The notes under the pieces were generated by a model, which was not told the origin of the DNA, searched no databases, and was given only the letters and a program-made list of their open reading frames with translations. A stretch of DNA of 64,000 bases, taken from Xanthostigma xanthostigma. Lineage: Eukaryota > Arthropoda > Insecta > Raphidioptera > Raphidiidae. The DNA lies in assembly GCA_963575645.1 (NCBI GenBank), contig OY754465.1, positions 43,550,401-43,614,400 of the forward strand. The letters run 5' to 3'. Position numbers and translations under genes: made by a program. This document shows, one piece after another, positions 5,188 through 63,107 of the stretch. Every line of letters begins with the position of its first letter. The stretch's first letter is position 1.

Positions 5188-5270
5188 AATTATATCTTTG
5201 CACCCTAATCGTGCGATTGCGATTTTCGTACTTTTCTCGGGACATATTTAATAAGCACATGGAATGTATA

Positions 5271-5410
5271 TGTTACGGTTAATACAAGAAAGTAGTTAAT
5301 TCGCGAATTAACCGGCTTATACCCGAATTAACCAATCCTTGACGTTTGGTTAATTCGGGTATTAGCCGGTTAATTCGCGAATAAACTACTTTCTTGTATT
5401 AACCGTAACA
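5271..5410. repeat. Foldback element, copy 1
   Basis: It is almost entirely an inverted repeat: TGTTACGGTTAATACAAGAA on the left and its complement on the right, with internal AATTAACCGG and AATTCGCGAATT. A second copy is at 6387-6536. A TA dinucleotide abuts both ends here, consistent with a 2-bp target duplication, but the palindromic ends make this ambiguous. Confidence 0.75.
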
Positions 5411-5465
5411 TATATACAATCTATTGTCTATACTCTATATATTATGTACCTCTACTTATACTCAA

Positions 5466-5634: not shown

Positions 5635-6386
5635 ATATATTAAAATTAATGTTCGTTCGTCTGTCTGTTCAGGACCTGTACGTTGTTATAGCATTCATCC
5701 GATTACTTTGAAACTTTGGTCAGTTGTGAACGTTCTTGCGAAGGCTTCGGTCAATCAGTATATAAACCTTGTTTTTTAAAGTGATACTACCATGCAAAGC
5801 GCCGGGTAGGGCTAGTAATCCTTATAAAAACGACCCCTCCCCTCTCAAATAAAAGTTCGTAACCGCCACTGCTTCAAATCTTTATATCCCATAGCAAACA
5901 GAAGTAATTGTTTCATTAAAATAAGACAGTGTTCTGATACCTATAAGAATTTTATTTTGGCGCGTCGCCGCTGATCTTAGATGAAAATCTAAAACACTTG
6001 TGGCCGTTATTATAAGACCAGGTGTTTGACGTTTAACTGCTAAATGAACACGTTCACCGCCATATGTGTAAAAATAAACTAGAATATTATGTTTCTCTGA
6101 AATAGTTCTCCTTACGTTTTCATTATAACCGAATTGCTGACTGAACACTATCGATATACGACTATCAGCCAATCGGTGGCAGAGAAAAAAAATCTTTTTG
6201 AGGGCGTAATGGAGAAAACTTTATTATATCGTGCTATATTAATTAGCGTGGCTATACAGTATGTAAACACGTAAGGTGCACATAGGGAAATTAACATTGG
6301 GAAAAAATGACTGGATCAGAGTGAGCCTTGAAATCTTGTTTTTCAATAATTTGACAGATAATATTCTTTTGCAAAATGAATGTGTA
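5635..6386. other. Retroposon-like tail, then unassigned sequence
   Basis: 5636-5830 has the TATTAAAATTAATGTTCGT...TTTGAAACTTTGG arrangement of short insect retroposons, also seen at 23504 and 31072. 5880-6386 shows nothing recognisable. Confidence 0.35.
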
Positions 6387-6536
6387 TGTTACGGTTAATA
6401 CAAGAAAGTAGTTTATTCGCGAATTAACCGGCTAATACCCGAATTAACCAACGTCAAGGATTGGTTAATTCGGGTAATTAGCCGATTAATTCGCGAATTA
6501 ACTACTTTCTAGTATTAACCGTAACATGTAAACTAC
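6387..6536. repeat. Foldback element, copy 2
   Basis: It is homologous end to end with 5271-5410, with the same outer TGTTACGGTTAATACAAGAA, and differs mainly around the loop. The internal loop sequences of the two copies are reverse complements (CGTCAAGGATTGG here versus CCAATCCTTGACG there), so the loop is inverted relative to copy 1. Confidence 0.75.
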
Positions 6537-15578: not shown

Positions 15579-15657
15579 GGCTACACCTACATTGGATCCG
15601 TATTTCTCCCGATCCGATGTCGGCCAACATCGAAAGATTAGCAAACACCAAGATTAT

Positions 15658-22183: not shown

Positions 22184-22395
22184 TTTTCTTCATACCTCGA
22201 TCGAAAGTACGTACTTTCGTCCCTTATAGCAGGGATGAAAGTTTGACATTTACTCTCTGTTATTAGTGTATTTGCCATAAGGCACTTACACTATTGGCGT
22301 CGGTCGGATGGCGGGACCTAGAGGTCGGACCAAAATTTCTCGACGTTTCATAAGTTTCTAAGAAGTTTGGCACCATTTTTGGAAATGTTTATATA

Positions 22396-22467
<72 letters not shown>

Positions 22468-22471
22468 TATA

Positions 22472-22513
<42 letters not shown>

Positions 22514-26261: not shown

Positions 26262-26605
26262 TTTTACCATTCCAACTCCGCAAGTGCTAATTTACGTCAT
26301 AGTTCAGTTTTCAACAATTTACAATTTTTTTTTCATTATGAGTTCTCTCGAGTTCAAAAAACATAGTTTTGAAAAGTCTGTTCGTCTGTTTGTGAGGAAG
26401 ATATAGGTCAAACAACTGAACGGATCGAAGTCAAATTTTAATAGGATGTTTGACACATAGAGATAGAGCCCTATTGTTTTGGGGGAAAATCGATGCATGC
26501 GCAGAAGAGAGGTGCTATTACGTTGTTTTTTCCTATTATAATGGCTGTACGGTTTATTATATTCCATTCATTTTTTAAAGAAAGTTTTGTAAAAATGTTT
26601 TTTTC
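26262..26605 (-). repeat. Dispersed repeat family (ATTCCAGCC end), truncated copy
   Basis: This is the reverse-orientation match of the distal half of 2210-2862 (ACCATTCCAAC, GAGTTCAAAAAACATAGTTT, GCCCTATTGTTTT, GCATGCGCAGAAGAGA). The proximal half is missing or too diverged. Confidence 0.6.
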
Positions 26606-27853
26606 TTAAGGTTTCTAAAGTTTAGTAAATGTTTTGAAAATAAAAAAAATTGGGCGACGTTGGGATCTAAGTTACCCGGAGACGAATCGAACAAAAAACA
26701 GTTTTTTAAAATCGATTTAAGGCGTTTGAGCTGTACACGTGTCACAAAAAAGCGTGGCATATAGATTCACAGACAAAGCGAGTGCATATAGGTTCTTCCA
26801 GCTATTGCTTGGGTCGCGCCTCAAATCAGCGGTTGGTTTTGTTCTGCTTTGGCTAAATATTACATATGAAACCATGAAAAGCAAATATCCTAATATTTAT
26901 AACTAGCAGGTAACCGTGTCACAGCATGCATAAATAGAATTTTTATTTTATTCTCGCGACAAGTTTTTGAACCTGTGCTGCGCAGTTTATTCCCTAGGCC
27001 TAGGTTAATGACATAGTTATAGAAACATAGGTCTTGTCCAATAAAAATGTCAAATTTCGTGATCGTCTTTCTGTGTCGACAGTCAACTTCCTTGTTAGAG
27101 TGTCTCGTCTTATCTAATCTTTGATGGATTTATAAAAAACTCTCGCCCCCAAATTAGAATGACATAACATATAGGTGTCTGGTTCTGGCATGATTTGAAC
27201 CGTAAAGTTAAGTCACTTAAAGAGATTAAATGAAATTAAAACCAACATTAATTTTGTGTTTTTATTTGAAACCTGTCACTTTCAGAGACTGTGACGGTAT
27301 GGCAGCGAAAATTTCCGAGAAGTGATTCGTTCTTTTCTTAGCCTCGGTTTTTATAACATATTCTTACTTCAGAAGTTGTCGCCTTTAGTAAAAGAAAGTC
27401 ATTACGGGAACGAATCCGGGGATGGGGAATCCTAGCTCACGTAATATAAGAAGGTACTTCGATGCACCTGATTGACAGTGCCGTTTCTTTTCATTGCTGT
27501 GAAAAATAAACTACCGAGTGACCCATGCACCTACTGACGAATCTATAAGTCTTTTTGAAATGCATTTTAAATTTAAAAATAAAGCGTTTTTGCCTAGAGT
27601 TGAAAAAAAGGAGTAGAAAAGTATGCAAAATTATTAATTACTGTTAAGGCGGGTGAGAACAACTCATAAGCCATCAAAATTCAAACGACTACGATTTTGG
27701 TACCTCGATGTCTGTTGGAACAAAAGATAACCTTTCGTGAAAAAGTGAATAATTCGGGTATCCTACTATGGACACAAAAAAAAAGTTTAAATAGTTTTTC
27801 GTTCAACATGATTTTTTTTTAAATGACAAAATTTATTTTTTTTTACATTGTGG
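26606..27853. other. Unassigned intergenic sequence
   Basis: 27415-27450 contains a possible tRNA B-box-like block on the minus strand (GGATTCGTTCCCG), too little to call. Nothing else is recognised. Confidence 0.3.
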
Positions 27854-29577: not shown

Positions 29578-29827
29578 GTAATTTACGTTTGTTCAATTTT
29601 CTATTTATAAACATAAACATCTTCAGCCAATTCACGTTCTTTAAAATTGCATTGCAAAAACCTTGTGTTGATAACAAATGTGTTGACAAAAAAAATGTCA
29701 TTCTATAAATAGGCAAAAAAAAGTATATGCAATGTGCATTGTACATTCCCATTGATACCTACTGCGTGTCTTTTTGGTTCAGTGTTGCTATAAATTATTT
29801 TAAGTCAGAGGCGATTTTCAGCTAAAA

Positions 29828-31060
29828 AATTCCAGCCAATTGGGCGACAGGACCATTCCAACTTCAAAAATATTGACATTTCATTTAGTATAATGAAGAG
29901 AATAAAATTTCTAATATCGCGTGAGGTGACGCGGGTAATGGCTAGAATTCAATAATTTGCTATTCGTTGCTATGGTTACCTAATAAATATGTTTCACGTC
30001 ATGTAAAAATTAATCAAAGCATGCTTAACTAGTTTATTCCTGACAGATCTACGAAATAAAGAATAGCTGTTTTTTTTATTTTCAAAATATTTCCGAAACT
30101 ATAGAGTTCAGGAAAAAAATTTAACAAAACTTTCTTGAAAAAATTAATGGAATAATAAATCATTACGGGAAGTATCCCATTATTATATATAACACAACGT
30201 TATAGCATAATATATCTGCTTTGCGCATACGCCGATTTTCCCCATAAACAATAGGACTCTTCATATTTACATATAAAATATCCTCCCAAAATTTTGTTTC
30301 AATCCAGCGTTGCCAGTTTTTTTTTTGCCAAGTCGAGATTTTGGAACTCTTTGAGTGAAAACAGCGGGATTCTTTCGTCGAAAGCGGGACATAGTAAAAA
30401 TACGTATATAATCAGAAGTTTTCAAATATATGTTTCTATTTGAATTAAAATTACGTTTGCGTGACAATAGATAGCAAAAATAGCCATAGAAAATGTATTT
30501 TAATAAAAATATAATATTTTAATCAGATTTACCCTATCGTTAAATAATAGTTGAGTCTTATTCGTCTTCAGAATAAAAAAAAAAAAAAAAAAACAGAAAT
30601 CAAAAAAGTTTTATTCATTAGAAAAATATGGCGTTTCAAACAATAGTCTGTGGAGTGAGTGTTACAAATTGCAATTTACAATAAGAGAATAATTTTTTAT
30701 AAGAATTACTTATTCATGATATTTCTGTGAAGATTTAACTTCTTTTAAAGTTATCCCCGAAAAGCGGGACATTTAATTTTTATTTAAAAATCGGGACGTC
30801 CCACCAAAATCGGGACGTCTGGCAACGCTGTTTCAATCCGTTAATGATGTTTAACCTGTATCGTGTTCACAGACTAACAGACGCACAGAGTTTTTCCAAA
30901 AATATGTTTTTTGGATTCGGGGGACCTCAAAACGAAAAGATATTGTAATTTTGAGAAGTGATTTTTACCTAAGTTAGTACCATTCTCCTGTGGGTTGGAA
31001 TGGTAAAAGAAAGCGCTACAAACGTTGACATGTAAAATTGAGACGATCAATATTTTATGT
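29828..31060 (+). repeat. Dispersed repeat family (ATTCCAGCC end), copy with nested hAT
   Basis: It begins AATTCCAGCCAATTGGGCGA and ends near GTTGGAATGGTAAAAG. It is homologous to 2210-2862 and 46026-46650 throughout. It is interrupted at AATTTTGTTTCAATC by the hAT element at 30305-30830 and then continues as TTTCAATCCGTTAATG. Confidence 0.8.
30305..30830. mobile_element. hAT-type MITE nested in the dispersed repeat
   Basis: The ends are CAGCGTTGCCAG and ...GTCTGGCAACGCTG. The flanks 30297-30304 and 30831-30838 are both TTTCAATC, present once in the uninterrupted copies (for example near 2689). It has repeated GCGGGAC and CGGGACGTC words near both ends and an A-run at 30577. It is 526 bp and non-coding. 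Confidence 0.9.
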
Positions 31061-35500: not shown

Positions 35501-35993
35501 AACCGACTTCAAAAAAGGAGGAGGTTATATTATGTTCGTGTGTATATAAATCTTTTTTTTATGATGTTCACCGATTTCTCCGTCAATTATGGATCGATTT
35601 TCAATTTTTTTTTTATTCGAAAGAGTGCACTTCCGAGGTGGTCCCATCGGAAATAAGTCAGGATCTGATGGTGGAATCCGGAGAAATCGAGGGAAACTCA
35701 AATTTTACCCATTGCAATACTTCATAAAATAACTGCATAATTTTTAATGTTAGATTATCTAACACTAAAAAGAGGAAAATAAAATATTTTTAAGAAAAAA
35801 ATTGAACCGACTTCAAAATATGCACTAAAAAGTAATAAATAAAATAATTGCATTTTTGGAGTCGGTGTCAGCCAAGGAAACACTACAATATACCTAGCAA
35901 TAATAACACCGACTCTAAAAATGCAATTATTTTATTTATTACTTTTTAGTGCATATTTTGAAGTCGGTTCAATTTTTTGTTAAAAATATTTTA
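35501..35993 (+). repeat. AACCGAC...GGAGGAGGTT repeat with terminal hairpin, copy 1
   Basis: The header AACCGACTTCAAAAAAGGAG GAGGTT at 35501 is a well-known insect repeat word. The 3' part is a hairpin: the left arm (35780-35873) contains GAACCGACTTCAAAATATGC and ACTAAAAAGTAATAAATAAA; the right arm (35907-35993) is its near-perfect complement. A second element of the same plan is at 47064-48027. No coding capacity. Confidence 0.7.
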
Positions 35994-37054
35994 TAGAACC
36001 AATTTTTATGCGGTAAGAGTCTCAAAATAACTGTCACTGTGTTTTCGTACCTTTACTGGGTTCTTGTTATTATAATATGGTCACTATTTAGAAGAGAAAT
36101 TATCATAATTTACCACCACTAGGAAGGAACAGCAATCATTCTGTTTAATGAGAAGAAATTAAATCAAAACCAATTCATCTTGCGCAGGGCGTTCTATAAA
36201 ATATAAATTAATCAAACTGTCGTGGACTTTCGACCCCGGCAATCCCACTGACAAGATGAAAACCCAGCGCTGCTAAACCGGAAACGCTTATTGCAATCCG
36301 CGACGAACGACGCTCTTTCTAAAATAAACTCACGTTTGTTGTCGTTCACTTTTTATTATTTTGTGTTTACAGTGCATTGACACAGCCAGGACCGTACTTG
36401 TAATAATTTGAAGCACGTATATGACATAAATAACAGAATTTACTGTAAAAATATGTCTGAAAATTTAAAATAAGCAGAAAAATACAGCGTAACCTTTACT
36501 CGCTGACCTCGAATCCATGCAGTCTGGAGTTACTGGGATCACTACGAAACGAGAGAGTGAGTGGTAAACACGTGAGTCAGTAGCGTATACTAATATAATT
36601 TAAACATTTTTATTTCCCAGAATAAACATGTTTTTTTAAGTAAGTTATAAAAAACAGAGAATTTTTAAATTGTTAACGGGTTAGGCTACTCTCGTAGTTG
36701 CGGAGTTGGTTCATTCATGCGCAAAGTAGGTGTATGGCAGTAGTAAAGAGATCAAGTACACACTAATACTCTGAACTTTCACACTTATATAAAGCACGAT
36801 TCAATTGGCTCCTCCAACTCTGTTATAAACCAACACGTTTTGTGACTCATAATCGGAAAAGGGTTAAATGTATTGTGAGTGTTTCCCAATGATCTAAGGC
36901 TTGTTAGCCTGAGCTAATATGCTCCTGCTCATTTTTTTTTAAATTAATTATTTGATATGATTTTATAGCACGTATACTGTCACAAGGTTATTACGTATAC
37001 CTGTCAAGTCAGAAAACGGGCATCTAATCCAAAATTTGTATTTAATTTGGGTTT
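35994..37054. other. Unassigned intergenic sequence
   Basis: No feature recognised. 36230-36340 is slightly GC-richer (TCGACCCCGGCAATCCC). Confidence 0.35.
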
Positions 37055-37716
37055 TTTTTACCATTTTAACACCACAAATAGGGAATGGTACTAATTTAGG
37101 GCAAAATTCACTTTTCAAAATTTTACAATATTTTTTTCGTAAGTTTCCCGAATTCAAAAAACATATTTTTGGTTTAAGTGTGTGCGTCTGCTTGTCTGTG
37201 AGCTCGGCACAGGTCAAAAGGTAAGCGGATTAAAACCAAATTTTGGGAGGATGCTTGATATGCAAATATGAAGAGCCTTATTGTTTTTGCGGAAATTTGG
37301 CGCATGTGCAGAACAGATATATGCTATAATGTTGTTTTTTATGTATAATAATTGTGTACTTTTCATAGCGGAATATTATTATATTTATTTTTAAAACAAA
37401 GTTTTGTAAAAAAAATTTTATATAAATTTTGTAGTTTAGAAATTATTTTGAAAATAAGTTTAAACACCTGTTCTTTTGTTCTGTGTATCTGTTTGTTAAG
37501 TAGTTTACTAGCATGCTTTAATTAATTTTACATGACGTGGTAACATATTATAAGTATAGATAACCGTGAAATAACAAATGTCTTAATATTTAATACTAAC
37601 CGTTACTCGCGTCACCGCACTCGTTAACAGAAATTTTCTTTTAGTTATTTAAATATATCAAATGGCAATATTTTTGAAGTTGGAATGGTTCCGTCGCCCA
37701 ATTGACCAGAATTTTT
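37055..37716 (-). repeat. Dispersed repeat family (ATTCCAGCC end), reverse copy
   Basis: The reverse complement matches 46026-46650 and 2210-2862. The right edge reads GGAATGGTTCCGTCGCCC AATTGACCAGAATTTTT; the left edge is ACCATTTTAACACCAC. Confidence 0.75.
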
Positions 37717-45510: not shown

Positions 45511-46025
45511 TACATAACCTACTATTTCCAGTTGATGGCATCTCTTGTTTCCTAATCTCGTATGGTGGCGGGTTTTACTACATTGCTCAGAAATGAGTAA
45601 TATTTTAATTATATATATAGTTGATAACAATAATAATAATTACTTTAATAATAGCAGCGATCCACCTGTTACATTATGTATGAGGTGTGTGGATGCTGTA
45701 CGATGTTTTGGTACCGGTATGTTAATTGTTTCACGTGTTCCCCTTCCCCCCACCACCGCTTCTCTCGTAACGATGTAACAATTTTCTTGAATGAATCATC
45801 AACTTGGACTTTTTGTTTATTGCATATTTGTTGTATAATATTTTGCGATATTATCATAATAATATTGTTAACTTTGAATTACTCATCTGTGTCGTTTTTT
45901 TTAAGTGTTCTTATAAATAAGTTTATAATAATAGATAAATTATGATTTTTTGTTTAGTCAGTTACAGTAGACAGTGTTTTTACATTACACACTACAGAAG
46001 TTGTACTGGCCTTATTGTAAAAAAA
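45511..46025. other. Unassigned sequence
   Basis: The 77- and 89-codon ORFs here lie in different frames of the same AT-rich stretch. Not called. Confidence 0.35.
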
Positions 46026-46650
46026 ATTCCAGCCAATTGAGCGACGGGACCATTCCAACTTCAAAAATGTTACATTTGATTATAATAGAGAAAATAAAAT
46101 TTCTGATATCGTGTGAGGTGACGCGAGTAATGGCTAGTATTCAATATATTTGCTATTCGTTGCCATGGTCACCTACATGTTCCACGCCATGTAAAAATTA
46201 ATCAAAGCATGCCGAACTAATTTATTTCTGACATCCATAAAACAAAAGAGCGACAGATTTTTTTTTATTTTTAGAAAAAAAAATTTTAACGAAACTTTCT
46301 TGAAAAAATAAATAGAATAATAAGCCGTTATGAAAAGTATACCATTATTATATAAATAACACCGTTATAGCATGTATCTCTTCTGCGCATGCGCCGATTT
46401 TCCCCAAAAACAATAAGGATCTTCATATTTGCATACCAAACATCCTCCCAAAATTTGGTTTCAATCCGCTCATCCTTTTGACCTGTATCGTGTTCACAGA
46501 TTAACAAACTAACAGACGCACAGAGTTTTTTCAAAAATTTGTTTTTTTGGATTCGGGGGCCTCAAAACGGAAAAATATTGTAAAATTATTGAAGAGTGAT
46601 TTTTGACTTAAACGCAGTACCATTCCCCACTTGTGGTTTGGAATGATAAA
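46026..46650 (+). repeat. Dispersed repeat family (ATTCCAGCC end), intact copy
   Basis: AATTCCAGCCAATTGAGCGA CGGGACCATTCCAAC at the left, TGTGGTTTGGAATGATAAAA at the right. Homologous throughout to 2210-2862. It is directly followed by a tRNA-like segment. Confidence 0.8.
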
Positions 46651-46659
46651 AGTATTGAC

Positions 46660-47063: not shown

Positions 47064-48027
47064 ACCGACGAAAAACAAAAACGGAGGAGGTTCTCAAGTC
47101 GACGCGTATATTTTTTTTTTTATTATTTTTTTTTTTATTTATGTATGACCACGCATAACTTTTTACAGAGTAGTCCGATTTTGATAAATATTTTTTTGTT
47201 TGAAAGGGTATACCCCGAAGTTGGTCCCATATAAATTTAGTAAAAAAATTCCAACCCTAAGGGTAGGAAAACAGGGGATGATTGATTGTTTACTCACTGA
47301 TTGTAATGTATGACCACACATAACTTTTTACAGAGTAGTCCGATTTTGATAATTATTTTTTTATTGGATAGGGTATACCTCGAGGTTGGTCTCATACAAA
47401 TTTGGAAAAAAAATTCCTACCCTAAGGGTGGGAAAATAGGGGTGATTTAGTGTTCACTCACAGATTTTCATGCTGAGTTGTGTATTACAATAATTATAAA
47501 TTATATAGCCACAAAAAATTATAAAATAAAAACTTTTTAACAAAAAAATTAAACCGCCGAAAAACTGAAAAGCAAAAAATAATAAATCTTTTAATTTAAC
47601 TAAGTTCTATTTAAGTAGTTGAACGTATGTGACAGTCTAGTATATCTAAGTAATTTTGAGTCGGCGTCAAACAATCAATGAACAAAGATCACTAAAAGAA
47701 ATAACCAAATCAAATTAACAATGATACGTGAAATCTCCTGCGATAAACATTAACATTCTAAACATGCGCTCTCCACACGACCACTCGCAAAGACGTGTGC
47801 CCTCAGTGTGTGCCCGTTCGGGTTGCTCTGTCGCTGACATTAACTTCGTGAACTCTCAGAGATTTCCGGCGAAGGATTGTTGACGCCGACTCAAAATTAC
47901 TTAGATATACTAGACTGTCACATACGTTCAACTACTTAAATAGAACTTAGTTAAATTAAAAGATTTATTATTTTTTGCTTTTCAGTTTTTCGGCGGTTTT
48001 ATTTTTTTGTTAAAAAGTTTTTTTATT
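47064..48027 (+). repeat. AACCGAC...GGAGGAGGTT repeat with large terminal hairpin, copy 2
   Basis: The header AACCGACGAAAAACAAAAAC GGAGGAGGTT is at 47064. Two direct copies of a TATGACCACRCATAACTTTT block follow (about 47142 and 47311). The 3' part is a 505-bp hairpin: arms 47523-47670 and 47880-48027 are nearly identical complements over about 148 bp, with one mismatch near the base. The 209-bp loop is unique and GC-richer. Same plan as 35501-35993. Confidence 0.75.
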
Positions 48028-48836
48028 AATGAAAACTCGTAAAACAATAGTTTGTAATCAGTACTACAAGCAAGTAAACAAAACAATCGCATGGTTACAG
48101 TGACACGCAAAAACTGCGTCTTTAAGCGGATCAATAATGACCCAGGACCGGTTGAATATACTGCATTTATTTTTTTTTAGAAGTTCGTTGGTATAGCTGA
48201 TTTTGTTTTGTCATTTTATAATTTATTGCTGTTAATTTGATGACAATATTATTAAAATGATTACCTTGTTGCAGGGACTTTTTCGTAGTTTATTTATCGT
48301 GTCGTTGTTACACAAGAATATATAAAAAACCCTATTTAGTTTTTTACCGTTTCGAAATACGCGTGTTCTGCATCATTTACTTTCTGTTTATCATTAGGTA
48401 TACTAGCAACCCGGCCCGGAGTCGCCCGGATTTGTAGATCGCCTGTTAAAGACAGACATATTATACTGTCGCATACGTTTTTTAATGAACTAAATATGTA
48501 TTTACCCGACGTTGCCCGGTAATAATAGCCTCCTGTTATGAGAGCCTAATGGGATATATTTTATCTCGGTGTTCGTAGAAGTCAAAAAAAGTATCCGGCT
48601 AGGAGCAGCACTTGTACAATGCACGTCGTGTGAAGTCAGAAGTCGAATGATTTTGACTATGGCTGTTTCACGGCTCATGTACCGGTAACATAATTTTGCT
48701 CATAACTAAATTTCACCACCTAACCAAAATCTATCCGAGAGGAAAGTTGGTTGCTAATATTTCTCGTACAAAATTCCAAATGAAAATAGAATTCAGCTGT
48801 GAAGGATAGCCGTATATGCGAAACACGCGTCGAAAT
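48028..48836. other. Intergenic sequence with retroposon header fragments
   Basis: 48402-48440 (TATACTAGCAACCCGGCCCG GAGTCGCCCGG) and 48505-48530 (TACCCGACGTTGCCCGG) resemble the header of the composite retroposon. Nothing else recognised. Confidence 0.4.
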
Positions 48837-51475: not shown

Positions 51476-51780
51476 AATATGGGCATTAATGTACGTTAAA
51501 TCGTGAAATCGGTAATATGTATGTTTAATAATAAATACGGAATTTTATAAAACAGATAATAATATGTTATGCATTCGATGCTGTACACTTGCATATACCT
51601 ATATACAGGGTGTAGAAAAGAAAGGATTCAAAGAAATAGGGAATTGCAAAGTGACGAACCCCAAAATGTCCGTGTCTGTGCCCTATGGACTATTTCTCCC
51701 TCAGATAAATAATACCATTATTATCACTTATCATTATTAATTTATACTACTACGTTTTTTATTTCTCCCGGCCTAATAGT
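51476..51780. other. Unassigned sequence before the large hairpin
   Basis: AT-rich. The last bases CTCCCGGCCTAATAGT together with the start of the hairpin form a small GC-rich stem (CTCCCGG / CCGGGAG). Confidence 0.4.
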
Positions 51781-52489
51781 CCGGGAGGTGAGGTCAAAAT
51801 TTATCAGTGATTTATCTCCGACTCAAATGTAATTGATTGAAGAGTTTAACCATTACTCTGTTCGAAATCGAAAGTCAGTCAGCACACCCGCGGTGGGTGT
51901 GGGCGTGGGAGGCTGTGAAACTCGTCGGAAAAACTATGAAAAAAAGTGATAAATCTGCTGATGAAAATTTGTTAGATTGTAAATAATTGATGATTAAACG
52001 TGAAAATAGTCGTCAGTCACTTTCCCGACGGGGGGAACATCGTCAGTCAGAGGTTTGAAGTCTTTAAAAGAATATCAATCTCAGTGTTTGAATTTAAAAT
52101 CGATATTTTCAGAACGAATAGTAGGAATAGAATGTTTCAGTTCCTACTATTCGTTCTGAAAATATCGATTTTAAATTCAAACACTGAGCAATTGACATTC
52201 TTTTAAAGGCTTCAAACCTCTGACTGACGATGTTTCCCCCTTCGGGAAAGTGACTGACGACTATTTTCACGTTTAATCATCAATTATTTACAATCTAACA
52301 AATTTTCATCAGCAGATTTATCACTTTTTTTCATAGTTTTTCCGACGAGTTTCACAGCCTCCCACGCCCACACCCACCGCGGGTGTGCTGACTGACTTTC
52401 GATTTCGAACAGAGTAATGGTTAAACTCTTCAATCAATTACATTTGAGTCGGAGATAAATCACTGATAAATTTTGACCTCACCTCCCGG
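51781..52489. repeat. 709-bp near-perfect inverted repeat (arms about 347 bp)
   Basis: The left arm 51781-52127 begins CCGGGAGGTGAGGTCAAAA; the right arm 52141-52489 ends TTTTGACCTCACCTCCCGG. The loop is only about 13 bp (ATAGAATGTTTCA). Reading both arms side by side, the outer 230 bp or so are identical. The inner part has a few substitutions and small gaps, for example CGACGGGGGGAAC versus GTTTCCCCCTTCG and AGTC versus GGC. No target duplication or second copy was seen. The ORF within is incidental. Such arms would fold into long double-stranded RNA if transcribed. Confidence 0.95.
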
Positions 52490-52984
52490 AATATAATGTC
52501 GGCACCAACATTATAATCTCGCTGTTTGCTTTTCTTCCGATCTCGACCGACATTGGATCGGGAAAAATACGGATCCAATGTAGGTGCAGCTTATATAATT
52601 GCTGCACTAAGAGAACTTTACGTTGAACAGTTTGGTGTAAACTGATTAGTCGCCAAGATCCATGAACAGTAAACACTTACACGTGTATTTATGTCATGCT
52701 TGTAACTGCCTCCTGTTGCTGTTGTTTTTGTTGTTGTTGTTATTTAGCGCCACTTGCTGAGCAATCGACGCAGTTCATGTCTGATCTTGTTTTACATTAG
52801 CATACAGGCAATTCAAAAATTACTAAATAACAAAACAGAAAAAAGTGTCATCTTAAGTTATTAAAAAATATATAGGCATGGGTTGGGTCGTAACGCTTGC
52901 CGTCACAATCATAGGTACTCCCCCCAGAGGAGAGTATATTTTTTATTCAATATTATTTTCAATAGTTCGTCACTGTAAAAAACA
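52490..52984. other. Unassigned sequence
   Basis: 52708-52742 has a TGTTGT-rich run. Nothing else recognised. Confidence 0.4.
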
Positions 52985-58430: not shown

Positions 58431-60190
58431 TAAAAGACTGTTTTTTTTGCTTTTTTAAGTTCTAATTTTTTACATTATGAGGTTAAGAATCCTTAGTAGT
58501 CCTTCGTAAGTAATTTTGTGATTTGTGAACTTCGTACTTAATATTAGTAGGTACTTGTGATTACAGCATGTTCTGTGTATTTGTTTACAGTTTATTGCTC
58601 AGAGTTGGTGACTGTTTGAGTTGCGAAATGTTATCACAAATAATCAGATTTTTGAGTAAAGCGTAGGTTGTGAAGTATTGTCAAATACCTTTCAGATTAC
58701 CCCGAGATTAACAACTTTATTTTGGTATTTGTTTGTACAATGTTTTGCTTACAGTTATTTAAATATTTAGAGATTTTTATTTGTCTGTATCAGCATCACG
58801 GCTGAACCGATTTTGACTAAACATGGTACATCATTAACTGTATTTTTTATCCGGTTACAATAAGGTTAAGATCTGTCAAAACAAACAATGCTAGTAATAT
58901 CCAAATAATGATTATATCAGTTAAAAATATGTAGGTATTACGAAATAATTATTGATAAAAATATCGATAATTCCTGGCGCGTATAGGTATAGACGTTTTT
59001 AAATAGATACATGAATAGTCAGTGTACATAGCTTAGACATAATTAAACACGAAAACAGGTGTGTTTTATATAAAAATATGTTCTTAGCGCTAACTCCTGC
59101 TCCAAGGTTATCAGCTCGCTAAGACAGCGTTATCAGTGCTCCGGTTGACGATAACGTCACTTTAAAGTAATCATACTGAATTGGATTATTTCAGTTTTAT
59201 GCACGCGTTTGTAATCGATGCGTCCACATAACCTTATTTGGTAACGATAACAAAAATTCAGAAGCGGGTGAAATATCGGTTTTGAATTCGAGTGATAATA
59301 ATGTAGTGGATCGAGTCGGTTAATTTTTTTTTTGTTGGATAACAGTTTAGCTTTTTTGTATGTGACATGAATTATAATAAAAAGAATAATTAATTATTAT
59401 TTTTTCTAAAATTTAATACTCTTTAATTAATTATCAGTATGTACTAGTATATAAAATTGTTAATTGCAGTGAGACCTTTGTCTTTGTATTATTGCTGGTT
59501 CCTAGGGGTTTGTGAGTAGTTTAACAAAACGTGTTTCTACAGTTTTTTGCCAATTGATACTTTTATCAGACTACGACCTCGTTATAAGATAAGGTTTATG
59601 TCAAAGACGAAAATAAAAGAAGCTTATAACAAAAAGTATTTTCGCTTAATCGTGTAGAACAGCCGCAATAGCAGTCGCAAAAATGATGTCGTCTAATTTT
59701 GTCAATTATATAAGTTCACATACGTCTTAAGTTGTAATCCGAAAAAGTTTCAGCTAAGATTTCAATGCAAGAAATAAAAAATAACGACAAACTTAAAATA
59801 TCAATTGATATCAGATTATCCTGGCTGTTGGTGAACTTCAAAAACGATAAAAATTTAAGGCTCGGCTAGTGTGAGATTCAAAAGCGAGAATATTTAGTTC
59901 CTATATAATTATTGAGCGCTGCATTTTTACTTTGAAAATGTTTGACTTTTGAAGTCTTTTGTTTGTCCTGACTTCAAAAGGACATGTACGCAATTTCGTG
60001 ACTATACCGGTGCTGTTATCCATTCATAAAACTGGTAACATCACCGATACCGTCGCGTACCACCATGTCCTTCCGGAAGACGCATAGTGCGTGATGTATT
60101 ATTATATATTTTCTTCCATCGACCTGGATAGACTGCTAGTCTGGTGGGCGCGAACCAAGTTCCGGTAGAAAGAGACATTGACAAATGCCT
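58431..60190. other. Unassigned intergenic sequence
   Basis: 58570-58760 continues the diverged repeat of 57530. 59976-60075 is an imperfect inverted repeat (AAGGACATGTACGC / GCGTACCACCATGTCCTT). Otherwise nothing recognised. Confidence 0.35.
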
Positions 60191-60408
60191 TAATAAGAAA
60201 GGATGAATTATTTCGGAGAAGGCTATAAATGATTTCTAATGGTATATGCTGCCGACGTATCGGAAAATATATTTCCTTCCTCAGGGCTTACATCTGTGTT
60301 CACAGATGTAAGCCCTGAGGAAGGAAATATATTTTCCGATACGTCGGCAGCATATACCATTAGAAATCATTTATAGCCTTCTCCGAAATAATATATCCTT
60401 TCTTATTA
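60191..60408. repeat. Near-perfect 218-bp palindrome with hammerhead-like strings
   Basis: The arms of about 105 bp are complementary from TAATAAGAAAGGATGAATTA to TAATATATCCTTTCTTATTA, with the center near 60300 (GTGTTCACA). Each arm contains CTGAGGA, A, GGAAA-loop-TTTCC, GATACGTC on one strand. This is close to the CTGANGA...GAAACGTC string of the other elements but has GATAC instead of GAAAC. Confidence 0.85.
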
Positions 60409-61223
60409 AACATAGGCTAAACTAATACACCTTACACATTAAATGCCTTAATATCTTCGTCTTCGTCACGCTCATTAGGTCCAAAGTGTTTTATGTAAAT
60501 TTTTTGAAAACGAAAAAATGTCAAATTTTTAGTGAAGTTGGCTTTCCAGCCAAAAACATTATTTAAATGACGTATACCATTCAAGGTTAATCAAAAGTAA
60601 TATTTCGGATTATTTTGTTGTTTGATAAATTATTTCAAAATAGTTTGTGTCAAATAGATTGTCAGTTTTTTTGCGTTTCGAATATAAACTTCAGCCAATT
60701 ATTATGAATTCATCCCTTCTGTTGCAAGCAAACCTGGATGCGCAGTAGTAAACAAGCTCTCCAGAAGTACATTACGTTGGTTTCTTCAACACACTTTTAT
60801 TTATTTTGTCCGCGATTGTACTTCGAATGTCAAGCAAGTATGTAACAAAATCATAAATTGCAGAATGTTTTAATTGTCTTTATTGATCGAAGTTTGCCGA
60901 CTCGACAGTTATAATAATTAGCAATTATTTGTATGTCCTAGATAATATTATAACTCATCGTAATAATGTAGGCTGTTTTGTTTGAAAACATCCGACAATC
61001 GTCGACTTTTTAACCTTTGAATGCATTTGTCGCTTACAGTAATTTTTGTGATATGAAGATTCCACAGTAGGTAATTATTATTGATACCGTTCTCCTTCAA
61101 TCTTTACACAGTTACTTTATATACTGGCTGATTCTTAATCTATTATTACGCATAAACTTGGGGAATTATAGCTAATGATAATTAATAATGATTATTGAAT
61201 GAGATTTATTTGGTTGAGGAACA

Positions 61224-61356: not shown

Positions 61357-62474
61357 TCGAGTCCATAATTACTCTCAAAATTATAATTGATAATCTCGAA
61401 CAGCAGTTATCGGTTGGTCTGTATGTACGTCCGAGCTCTACAGACCGAAATTTTGGTCGAATTATATTTTACTACACTATTTCCTAACATTAAATATTAG
61501 TTAAATATGGAAAATATAATTCATGACGTACCTAAGACTTTGGTTGTTCTACAGCTCTGCAGCGCTCATTGAGGAACCGTCACTGCGAAATCCCATACTT
61601 GTTTTCTTCTGAGTAGCCATATAGCTCCGAATTTTTCCGGACATGTCCAGAATGCGACTAGAATTTTTACGTCTTCGGAAGTTTTGTAAATGTTATTAAA
61701 AAATAAATATCAATCACTTCAGGCAAGATTTTATTATTACAAATACTATACGGAGTACGGATAACACGTAAAATCATCTTATAAAAATTTTCATCAAAAG
61801 TTATAGAGTGAAATGATTTTTTTTTTAATTAATTGATATTAAAAATATTTTTTTCAGTTTTCAAATTAAATTATTTTGAGTTTGATAAGGATGATTGTAC
61901 CTTGAGAATTGAATTGTTTATAGAATGTTAATCGTTTTCAATTAATACAATAATTAATTAATTAAAAATATCAAATTTATTTTTTCGTATAATTTTACTA
62001 ATCTGTAATCTAGTGTGAGGATTTAGTTTAATCTTTATTTATAAAAACTAAAATGGATATTGTTTGTACAATTATTTATCTATTAAAAAAACACTAGTCG
62101 CAGTGCCAAATCCTGCCGACTAAATAGTTTGCTAAATTCTTTTAATCAGTTCGTTATATCCGAATTTCGCAATACACAAAAATGGCGGGACTTGAAATTA
62201 AGATCATTAGGAACGGTAGCTCGGTGAACATAAGGACGTTATAACGAAGTTCTACTGTACATTCATTTTGATATTTGGCTGTATATATCCTTAAATTTGT
62301 ATTTGGTCACATAGTTAACCACATCATCTGTTAGAATGGTCACATTTTTAAACGCTTTATATTAGTTTGGGTTGTAAATATGTATGTTGTATGTATGTTG
62401 TATGTATCTAACTATGTATGTAACTATGTGTAACGGAATCTTTGAGCATAATTTTCACCAATTTCCCGAAGTCT
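61357..62474. other. Unassigned; Tigger-like end fragment and TATG repeats
   Basis: 62225-62262 (ACGTTATAACGAAGTTCTAC TGTA) looks like a Tc1/mariner-type right end with no partner found. 62375-62432 is a TGTATGTA-type short repeat. Nothing else recognised. Confidence 0.35.
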
Positions 62475-62869
62475 GATTAATTTGAAACTTTGCATACGTA
62501 TCAAGGACCGATGACAATGCAATAATTTGATAACAGTTTCCCATTATCCTTATTAGGACCCCCAGGATTAATAAATTCTTTTATAGATCCTCTGTAGTAA
62601 ACGCTTTATTTTCACCAATTTCCCGAAGTCTGATTAATTTGAAACTTTGCATACGTATCAAGGACCGATGACAATGCAATAATTTGATAACAGTTTCCCA
62701 TTATCCTTATTAGGACCCCCAGGATTAATAAATTCTTTTATAGATCCTCAGATTAATTTGAAACTTTGCATACGTATCAAGGACCGATGACAATGCAATA
62801 ATTTGATAACAGTTTCCCATTATCCTTATTAGGACCCCCAGGATTAATAAATTCTTTTATAGATCCTCA
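62475..62869 (+). repeat. Three near-identical tandem copies
   Basis: Copies start at 62475, 62632 and 62751 with GATTAATTTGAAACTTTGCA and end in TTATAGATCCTC. The first interval is 157 bp, the second 119 bp; the 38-bp difference is a TTTTCACCAATTTCCCGAAG-containing block missing from the third unit. The shared 119 bp look identical in all three. Confidence 0.9.
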
Positions 62870-62882
62870 AACTAAAAAGTGA

Positions 62883-63107
62883 AAAATAAAATATAGTTTA
62901 AAAAAAACTAAAAAACACGCTTTATATCGCACTAAAAAGTAAAAAATAATTGTTTTAAAATAAGCTTAAAAAGCGTTGGGCGCTCGATGTACGAAAATGT
63001 GGAACAAAGCGCCCCACGCTTTTTAAGCTTATTTTAAAACAATTATTTTTTACTTTTTAGTGCGATATAAAGCGTGTTTTTTAGTTTTTTTTAAACTATA
63101 TTTTATT
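62883..63107. repeat. Large hairpin repeat of the ACTAAAAAG-arm type
   Basis: The arms of about 100 bp (CACGCTTTATATCGCACTAA AAAGTAAAAAATAATTG and its complement) are nearly perfect. The loop of about 30 bp contains CTCGATGTACGAAAATGTGG. A partial duplicate of the arm start (ACTAAAAAGTGAAAAATAAA) lies just outside at 62874. Confidence 0.9.

Follow-up and report, generated by a model that had tools for sequence, protein, structure and literature searches.

Anatomy of the hairpin

The window (the whole 64 kb stretch of DNA that was analysed) has a G+C content of 34.6% and a CpG observed/expected ratio of 1.24. Its longest start-to-stop reading frame covers 163 amino acids, and it looks like non-coding animal DNA. 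Its longest palindrome is a DNA hairpin of 711 bp at 51780–52490, as delimited by BLAST and by a gapped alignment of one arm against the other. The left arm (51780–52127, plus strand) is 348 bp long, and is followed by a loop of 13 nt (52128–52140), within which three pairs form in the predicted RNA fold, and by a right arm of 350 bp (52141–52490, minus strand), which is the inverted copy of the left. An earlier note on this DNA had placed a hairpin of 709 bp with a 13-bp loop at 51781–52489, and those coordinates prove right to within one base, the difference being a single paired T/A at each end. When copies within 1 kb of each other are considered, the longest perfect inverted repeat in the window measures 249 bp, compared to 13–15 bp in 20 shuffled windows (first-order Markov, same distance limit), so that the hairpin is far beyond chance expectation.

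The tips of the arms read TCCGGGAGG...CCTCCCGGA. The motif CGTCAGTCA occurs twice in the left arm, at 52011 and 52041 (the pair spanning 52011–52049, plus strand), where it flanks the first two differences between the arms, and both copies are mirrored in the right arm at 52221 and 52251. A related motif, GTCAGTCAG, is found at 51874 and 52388. The CGTCAGTCA copies are possibly subterminal protein-binding motifs. No tandem array was listed in the hairpin.

Arm identity is arranged in three zones. The outer zone (51780–52028, plus strand, 249 bp) is the perfect complement of 52242–52490, and the innermost zone (52080–52127, plus strand, 48 bp) is the perfect complement of 52141–52188. Every difference between the arms falls in the 51 bp that lie between them (52029–52079, plus strand, with its partner at 52189–52241). 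There are five events: C/A at 52029, G/A at 52035, T/C at 52061, A/G at 52074 and a 2-bp indel after 52079, with transitions accounting for three of the four substitutions. If the events were placed uniformly over 348 bp, the probability of finding all five within 51 bp would be about 0.0017, a value to be read as that of a test chosen post hoc. The outer part had been described previously as about 230 bp of identical complements and the inner part as about 115 bp that differ; the arm alignment retains the perfect outer stretch at a length of 249 bp, and finds the differences in the inner part confined to 51 bp, leaving the innermost 48 bp perfect.

The clustering of the differences is compatible with partial homogenisation (partial conversion) of the arms, and template switching between the arms would fit it too, a process that has been documented between inverted-repeat arms in yeast (PMC8604942). 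Zero differences in 249 bp place an upper bound of about 1.2% on the divergence of the outer zone (95%, rule of three). A mutation rate of ∼3e-9 per site per generation is taken here for insects. At this rate the bound is compatible with an age of up to ∼2 million generations, so that the word “young” spans a wide range and is to be taken loosely. With that proviso, the structural half of the earlier note holds: the arms are either young or homogenised, and could form a long double-stranded RNA. The pattern of identity (perfect, ∼10% different, perfect) provides a small natural record of the possible homogenisation of a long hairpin.

The hairpin is accompanied by 13 further palindromes in the 64 kb, ranging from 67 to 316 bp and from 72 to 97% in self-complementarity. 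This set leaves out five palindromes of 30–44 bp, the TA microsatellite at 22390–22508, and eight inverted repeats in which a spacer separates the arms. Palindromic elements are thus common here.

Similarity searches and predicted RNA

The hairpin and its edges contain 23 stop-to-stop frames of at least 25 amino acids. Eight of these were compared with Pfam, and none gave a match above the curated cut-off (best E 0.11); several of the other 15 are mirror copies of the eight. The small frame with an ATG at 51936 (within 51837–51983) had no Pfam match. Elsewhere in the window, ten of the 30 frames of at least 90 amino acids were searched and none passed the cut-off, with weak matches below it for six of the ten (best E 0.018). 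A Pfam transposase was not found in any of the 18 frames searched (8 from the hairpin and edges, 10 from the window). An origin of the arms from a gene or gene fragment was considered and set aside, as there was no Pfam match above the cut-off in the 8 of 23 frames searched. The lack of a Pfam family in the frames searched (8 of 23 and 10 of 30) is what would be expected of a non-autonomous element. No tRNA was found. Patterns of bacterial promoters and terminators gave nothing useful, and are not meaningful in what is apparently animal DNA.

The arm has no second copy in the window, either by BLAST (E up to 1), which gave otherwise only matches of 16–29 bases, or by a scan of both strands for left-arm 14-mers, none of which recur outside 51761–52510. 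The earlier note had said as much. Exact arm patterns of 20–40 bases had 0 matches in viral contigs, and an exact 27-base arm pattern had 0 matches in the genome contigs of collections of bacteria, archaea and viruses. A phage collection gave only 7 short matches (E 0.3–0.9) and a plasmid collection no match at E 0.1. The collections searched hold viruses, bacteria and archaea, so the lack of relatives among them says little.

The predicted RNA fold of the hairpin has an energy of −633.2 kcal/mol, compared to a mean of −168.4 for 20 shuffles (z −57), and the right arm contains exact complements to 262 of the 328 left-arm 21-mers, which means that the shape would suit Dicer. A siRNA role is therefore possible on grounds of shape. 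It would require a functional hpRNA locus, arising by way of either a foldback element or a local inverted duplication, in which transcription of both arms gives a dsRNA of ∼350 bp that is processed by Dicer-2 to siRNAs of 21–22 nt, and these silence a related gene or transposon. The near-perfect long inverted repeat found here is of the form expected of such a locus. It shares with the hpRNA loci of Drosophila (hp-CG4068, Nmy, Tmy and hp-ODox) an inverted repeat able to make a long dsRNA, but in those cases Dicer-2-dependent siRNAs, primary transcripts and targets are on record (PMC10317233). As described in the same source, fly hpRNAs are typically complementary to one or a few targets, and hp-ODox2 has arms with homology to a BS2/Jockey transposon (PMC10317233). 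No complementary target was found within the window, where no left-arm 14-mer is shared outside 51761–52510.

The Rfam results bear on this in both directions. At the gathering score nothing was found in the whole window, and this counts against a hpRNA. In a relaxed search of 51700–52600, 20 rows were returned, all sub-threshold and all within 52050–52249. Sixteen of them belong to 12 miRNA families with dissimilar names, four of which match on both strands, and the remaining four are unrelated RNAs. The best row, a match of the inner stem to a microRNA precursor model, has an E of 1.2e-10 and 58.1 bits, against a gathering score of 95, and such sub-threshold matches of the inner stem can be cited in support of a hairpin RNA. 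Given the unlike names of the miRNA families, the matches of four on both strands and the unrelated RNAs among them, the rows are taken as generic stem matches, and a known structured RNA at this position was rejected. The rows for microRNA models do not speak against a hairpin RNA.

Against a hpRNA locus it also weighs that an equally good fold is expected of any perfect inverted repeat, the shape being common to every young foldback, and that none of the eight frames searched has a Pfam match above the cut-off. A functional hpRNA locus is unlikely on this evidence. A more specific version is very unlikely: that of a recently born hpRNA gene in a lineage other than the well-studied flies, which would carry in its arms part of a selfish gene or transposon from another locus and silence that source by means of siRNAs. 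Repeated correction within the hairpin would keep the arms identical except in the 51-bp patch, which would track a second variant of the target. If siRNAs were found, hpRNA silencing and its arms race would extend to another lineage. The hairpin is probably ordinary, and of low interest unless small RNAs map to its arms.

Ends, flanks and origin

Target-site duplications were sought at pairs of ends between 51764–51785 on the left and 52485–52506 on the right, and none of 5 bp or more was present at any pair tried. The Mutator-like (MULE) type of duplication (8–10 bp) is missing, as there is none of at least 8 bp with up to one mismatch, and so is the 7–8-bp type of P-superfamily foldback (Galileo-like) elements at the hairpin ends. 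The flanks share five 4-bp matches (AATA, TAAT, CGGC, and CCGG twice); 425 of 500 shuffled flank pairs equal or beat these, which places them at chance level. At symmetric ends two bases further out (GTCCGGG/CCCGGAA), both flanks have TA. Such a match would agree with a TA duplication, yet is often expected by chance, and at the hairpin ends a duplication of 2–4 bp (TA or AATA) is indistinguishable from chance. When the symmetric test was applied to the 13 neighbouring palindromes, a duplication of at least 5 bp was seen in only one of the 13, and some of them probably have sites of 2–4 bp, such as TA or TTAA. The test is therefore a weak instrument for elements with duplications of 2–4 bp, and the comparison a poor control.

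Beyond the tips, BLAST takes the arms 12 bp further out (to 51768 and 52502), where 8 of the 12 positions match; the similarity is weak and may be a product of chance. The fall in arm identity, from a perfect stretch of 249 bases to eight matches in 12 beyond the tips, was counted in favour of an element-like anatomy. The heptamer CTCCCGG occurs, on either strand of the window, at the two arm tips and once more at 51765–51771 (plus strand), 8 bp outside the left arm; this extra copy may be due to chance. Next to the right arm lies a fragment of a dispersed repeat that is unrelated to the hairpin (52513–52590, plus strand; 86% identical over 78 bp to 15580–15657, minus strand). The resemblance of the right flank to that repeat starts at about 52508 and is not carried on in the left flank. 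Insertion of the hairpin within this repeat was examined and rejected: the joined flanks score 126 against it, where shuffled left flanks give a mean of 125.4 and a maximum of 155 (300 shuffles). With the left flank by itself the score is 36, and 58 of 300 shuffles do as well. As the joined flanks fail to rebuild the repeat, the window offers no empty site.

The explanation we favour, with some reservation, is that the hairpin is a copy of a non-autonomous foldback-type DNA transposon. An ordinary foldback MITE, the outcome that the earlier note had set against its own proposal, is the most likely reading of the locus. Terminal inverted repeats of 348 and 350 bp around a loop of 13 nt form most of the structure, and it is this combination of long arms and tiny loop, together with the lack of recognisable genes, the repeated motifs in the arms and the neighbouring palindromes, that favours a foldback element. 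Such an element would consist of two long terminal inverted repeats and the 13-bp loop, would carry no gene, and would owe its past movement to a transposase encoded at another locus, which would bind the ends of the arms and perhaps also the repeated CGTCAGTCA motifs. The near-identity of the arms would mean that the copy is fairly recent, or that its strands have corrected each other (by gene conversion or template switching), or both, and the 51-bp patch would then have escaped correction or be derived from a different copy.

Comparison with known families is by anatomy. No terminus of a known family was identified at the hairpin. Galileo is a foldback-like element of the P superfamily in Drosophila. 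In D. willistoni, 124 of its 191 copies have a pair of TIRs and nothing but a spacer between them, an arrangement common in families of this kind, and the hairpin is like these two-TIR copies in having two long inverted repeats, a spacer and no coding content (PMC4168063). It is also unlike them, as the Galileo copies mostly have duplications of 7–8 bp and the hairpin has none; identical duplications are reported for ∼89% of the Galileo copies whose ends are preserved (PMC4168063), and by that standard their absence here counts against a foldback element. Long TIRs and non-autonomous forms are also described for the foldback Tetris and MITE DAIBAM of D. virilis (PMC4079207) and for the Mutator-like Muta1 of Aedes aegypti (PMC5225508). 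Tetris and Muta1 have tandem repeats within the TIRs and duplications of 8–10 bp, whereas the hairpin has a few dispersed copies of CGTCAGTCA, no array and no such duplication. For Galileo, Tetris and Muta1 together, duplications of 7–10 bp are given in these sources (PMC4168063, PMC4079207, PMC5225508). In being a short, non-coding inverted-repeat element, the hairpin resembles the insect MITEs, of which iMITEdb holds 6012 families in 98 species (PMC5199201); set against insect MITEs generally, it is distinguished by arms that exceed those of the other palindromes listed in the window.

The lack of a second copy in the window likewise counts against a foldback element, and a one-off local inverted duplication would account equally well for this and for the absence of a target-site duplication. 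In such an event a polymerase at a fork or repair site would have switched strand and copied ∼350 bp of non-mobile DNA alongside in inverted orientation, so that one arm would be the original and the other its copy, and no transposase would be involved. Inverted duplications formed by fold-back and break-induced routes have been described (PMC3907307, PMC10622511). This origin would leave no target-site duplication, and it therefore keeps an appreciable minority share of the probability. It is the less likely explanation, with 13 other palindromes sharing the window, and a simple fold-back gives no cause for the 51-bp zone to have diverged more than the outer and innermost parts.

DNA palindromes are reported to trouble most sequencing approaches (PMC4057610), and a fold-back chimeric read could in principle have produced an artefact of sequencing or assembly. 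With such a read the left flank should reappear, inverted, beyond the right arm. In this sequence the inversion comes to an end before an unlike flank, and five events separate the arms. An artefact of this kind is disfavoured by the unlike outer flanks and by the differences between the arms, and is very unlikely. If the hairpin is indeed a foldback element, it represents a further family of a common type, of use chiefly in repeat annotation.

Other repeats in the window

The palindrome at 60190–60409 (220 bp, 97% self-complementary, with ends TTAATAAG...CTTATTAA) slightly exceeds the hairpin in BLAST identity (97.3 vs 96.3%), the value for the hairpin being computed over a span that includes its loop and the weak outer stretch. 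It is perhaps a TTAA-site element. The palindromes at 5267–5414 and 6386–6527 are two copies of one palindromic element (ATGTTACGGTTAATACAAGAAA...), located ∼1 kb apart and 96% identical. Those at 62885–63107 and 35779–35994 have similar A/T-rich ends (ATAAAATAT...) and, judged by their ends alone, possibly belong to one family.

A dispersed element of up to ∼660 bp is present in at least four copies (2204–2841, 29824–30305, 37056–37716 and 46020–46651), the pairs listed being 74–83% alike, and has more distant or partial matches at 26262–26649 and 30830–31009. At 62451–62869, tandem duplications overlap each other; their units, of 157 and 119 bp, match at 100%, so that the duplications are probably recent. 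The segments at 47522–47676 and 47875–48028 form an inverted repeat of 155 bp, 97% identical, with its arms ∼200 bp apart.
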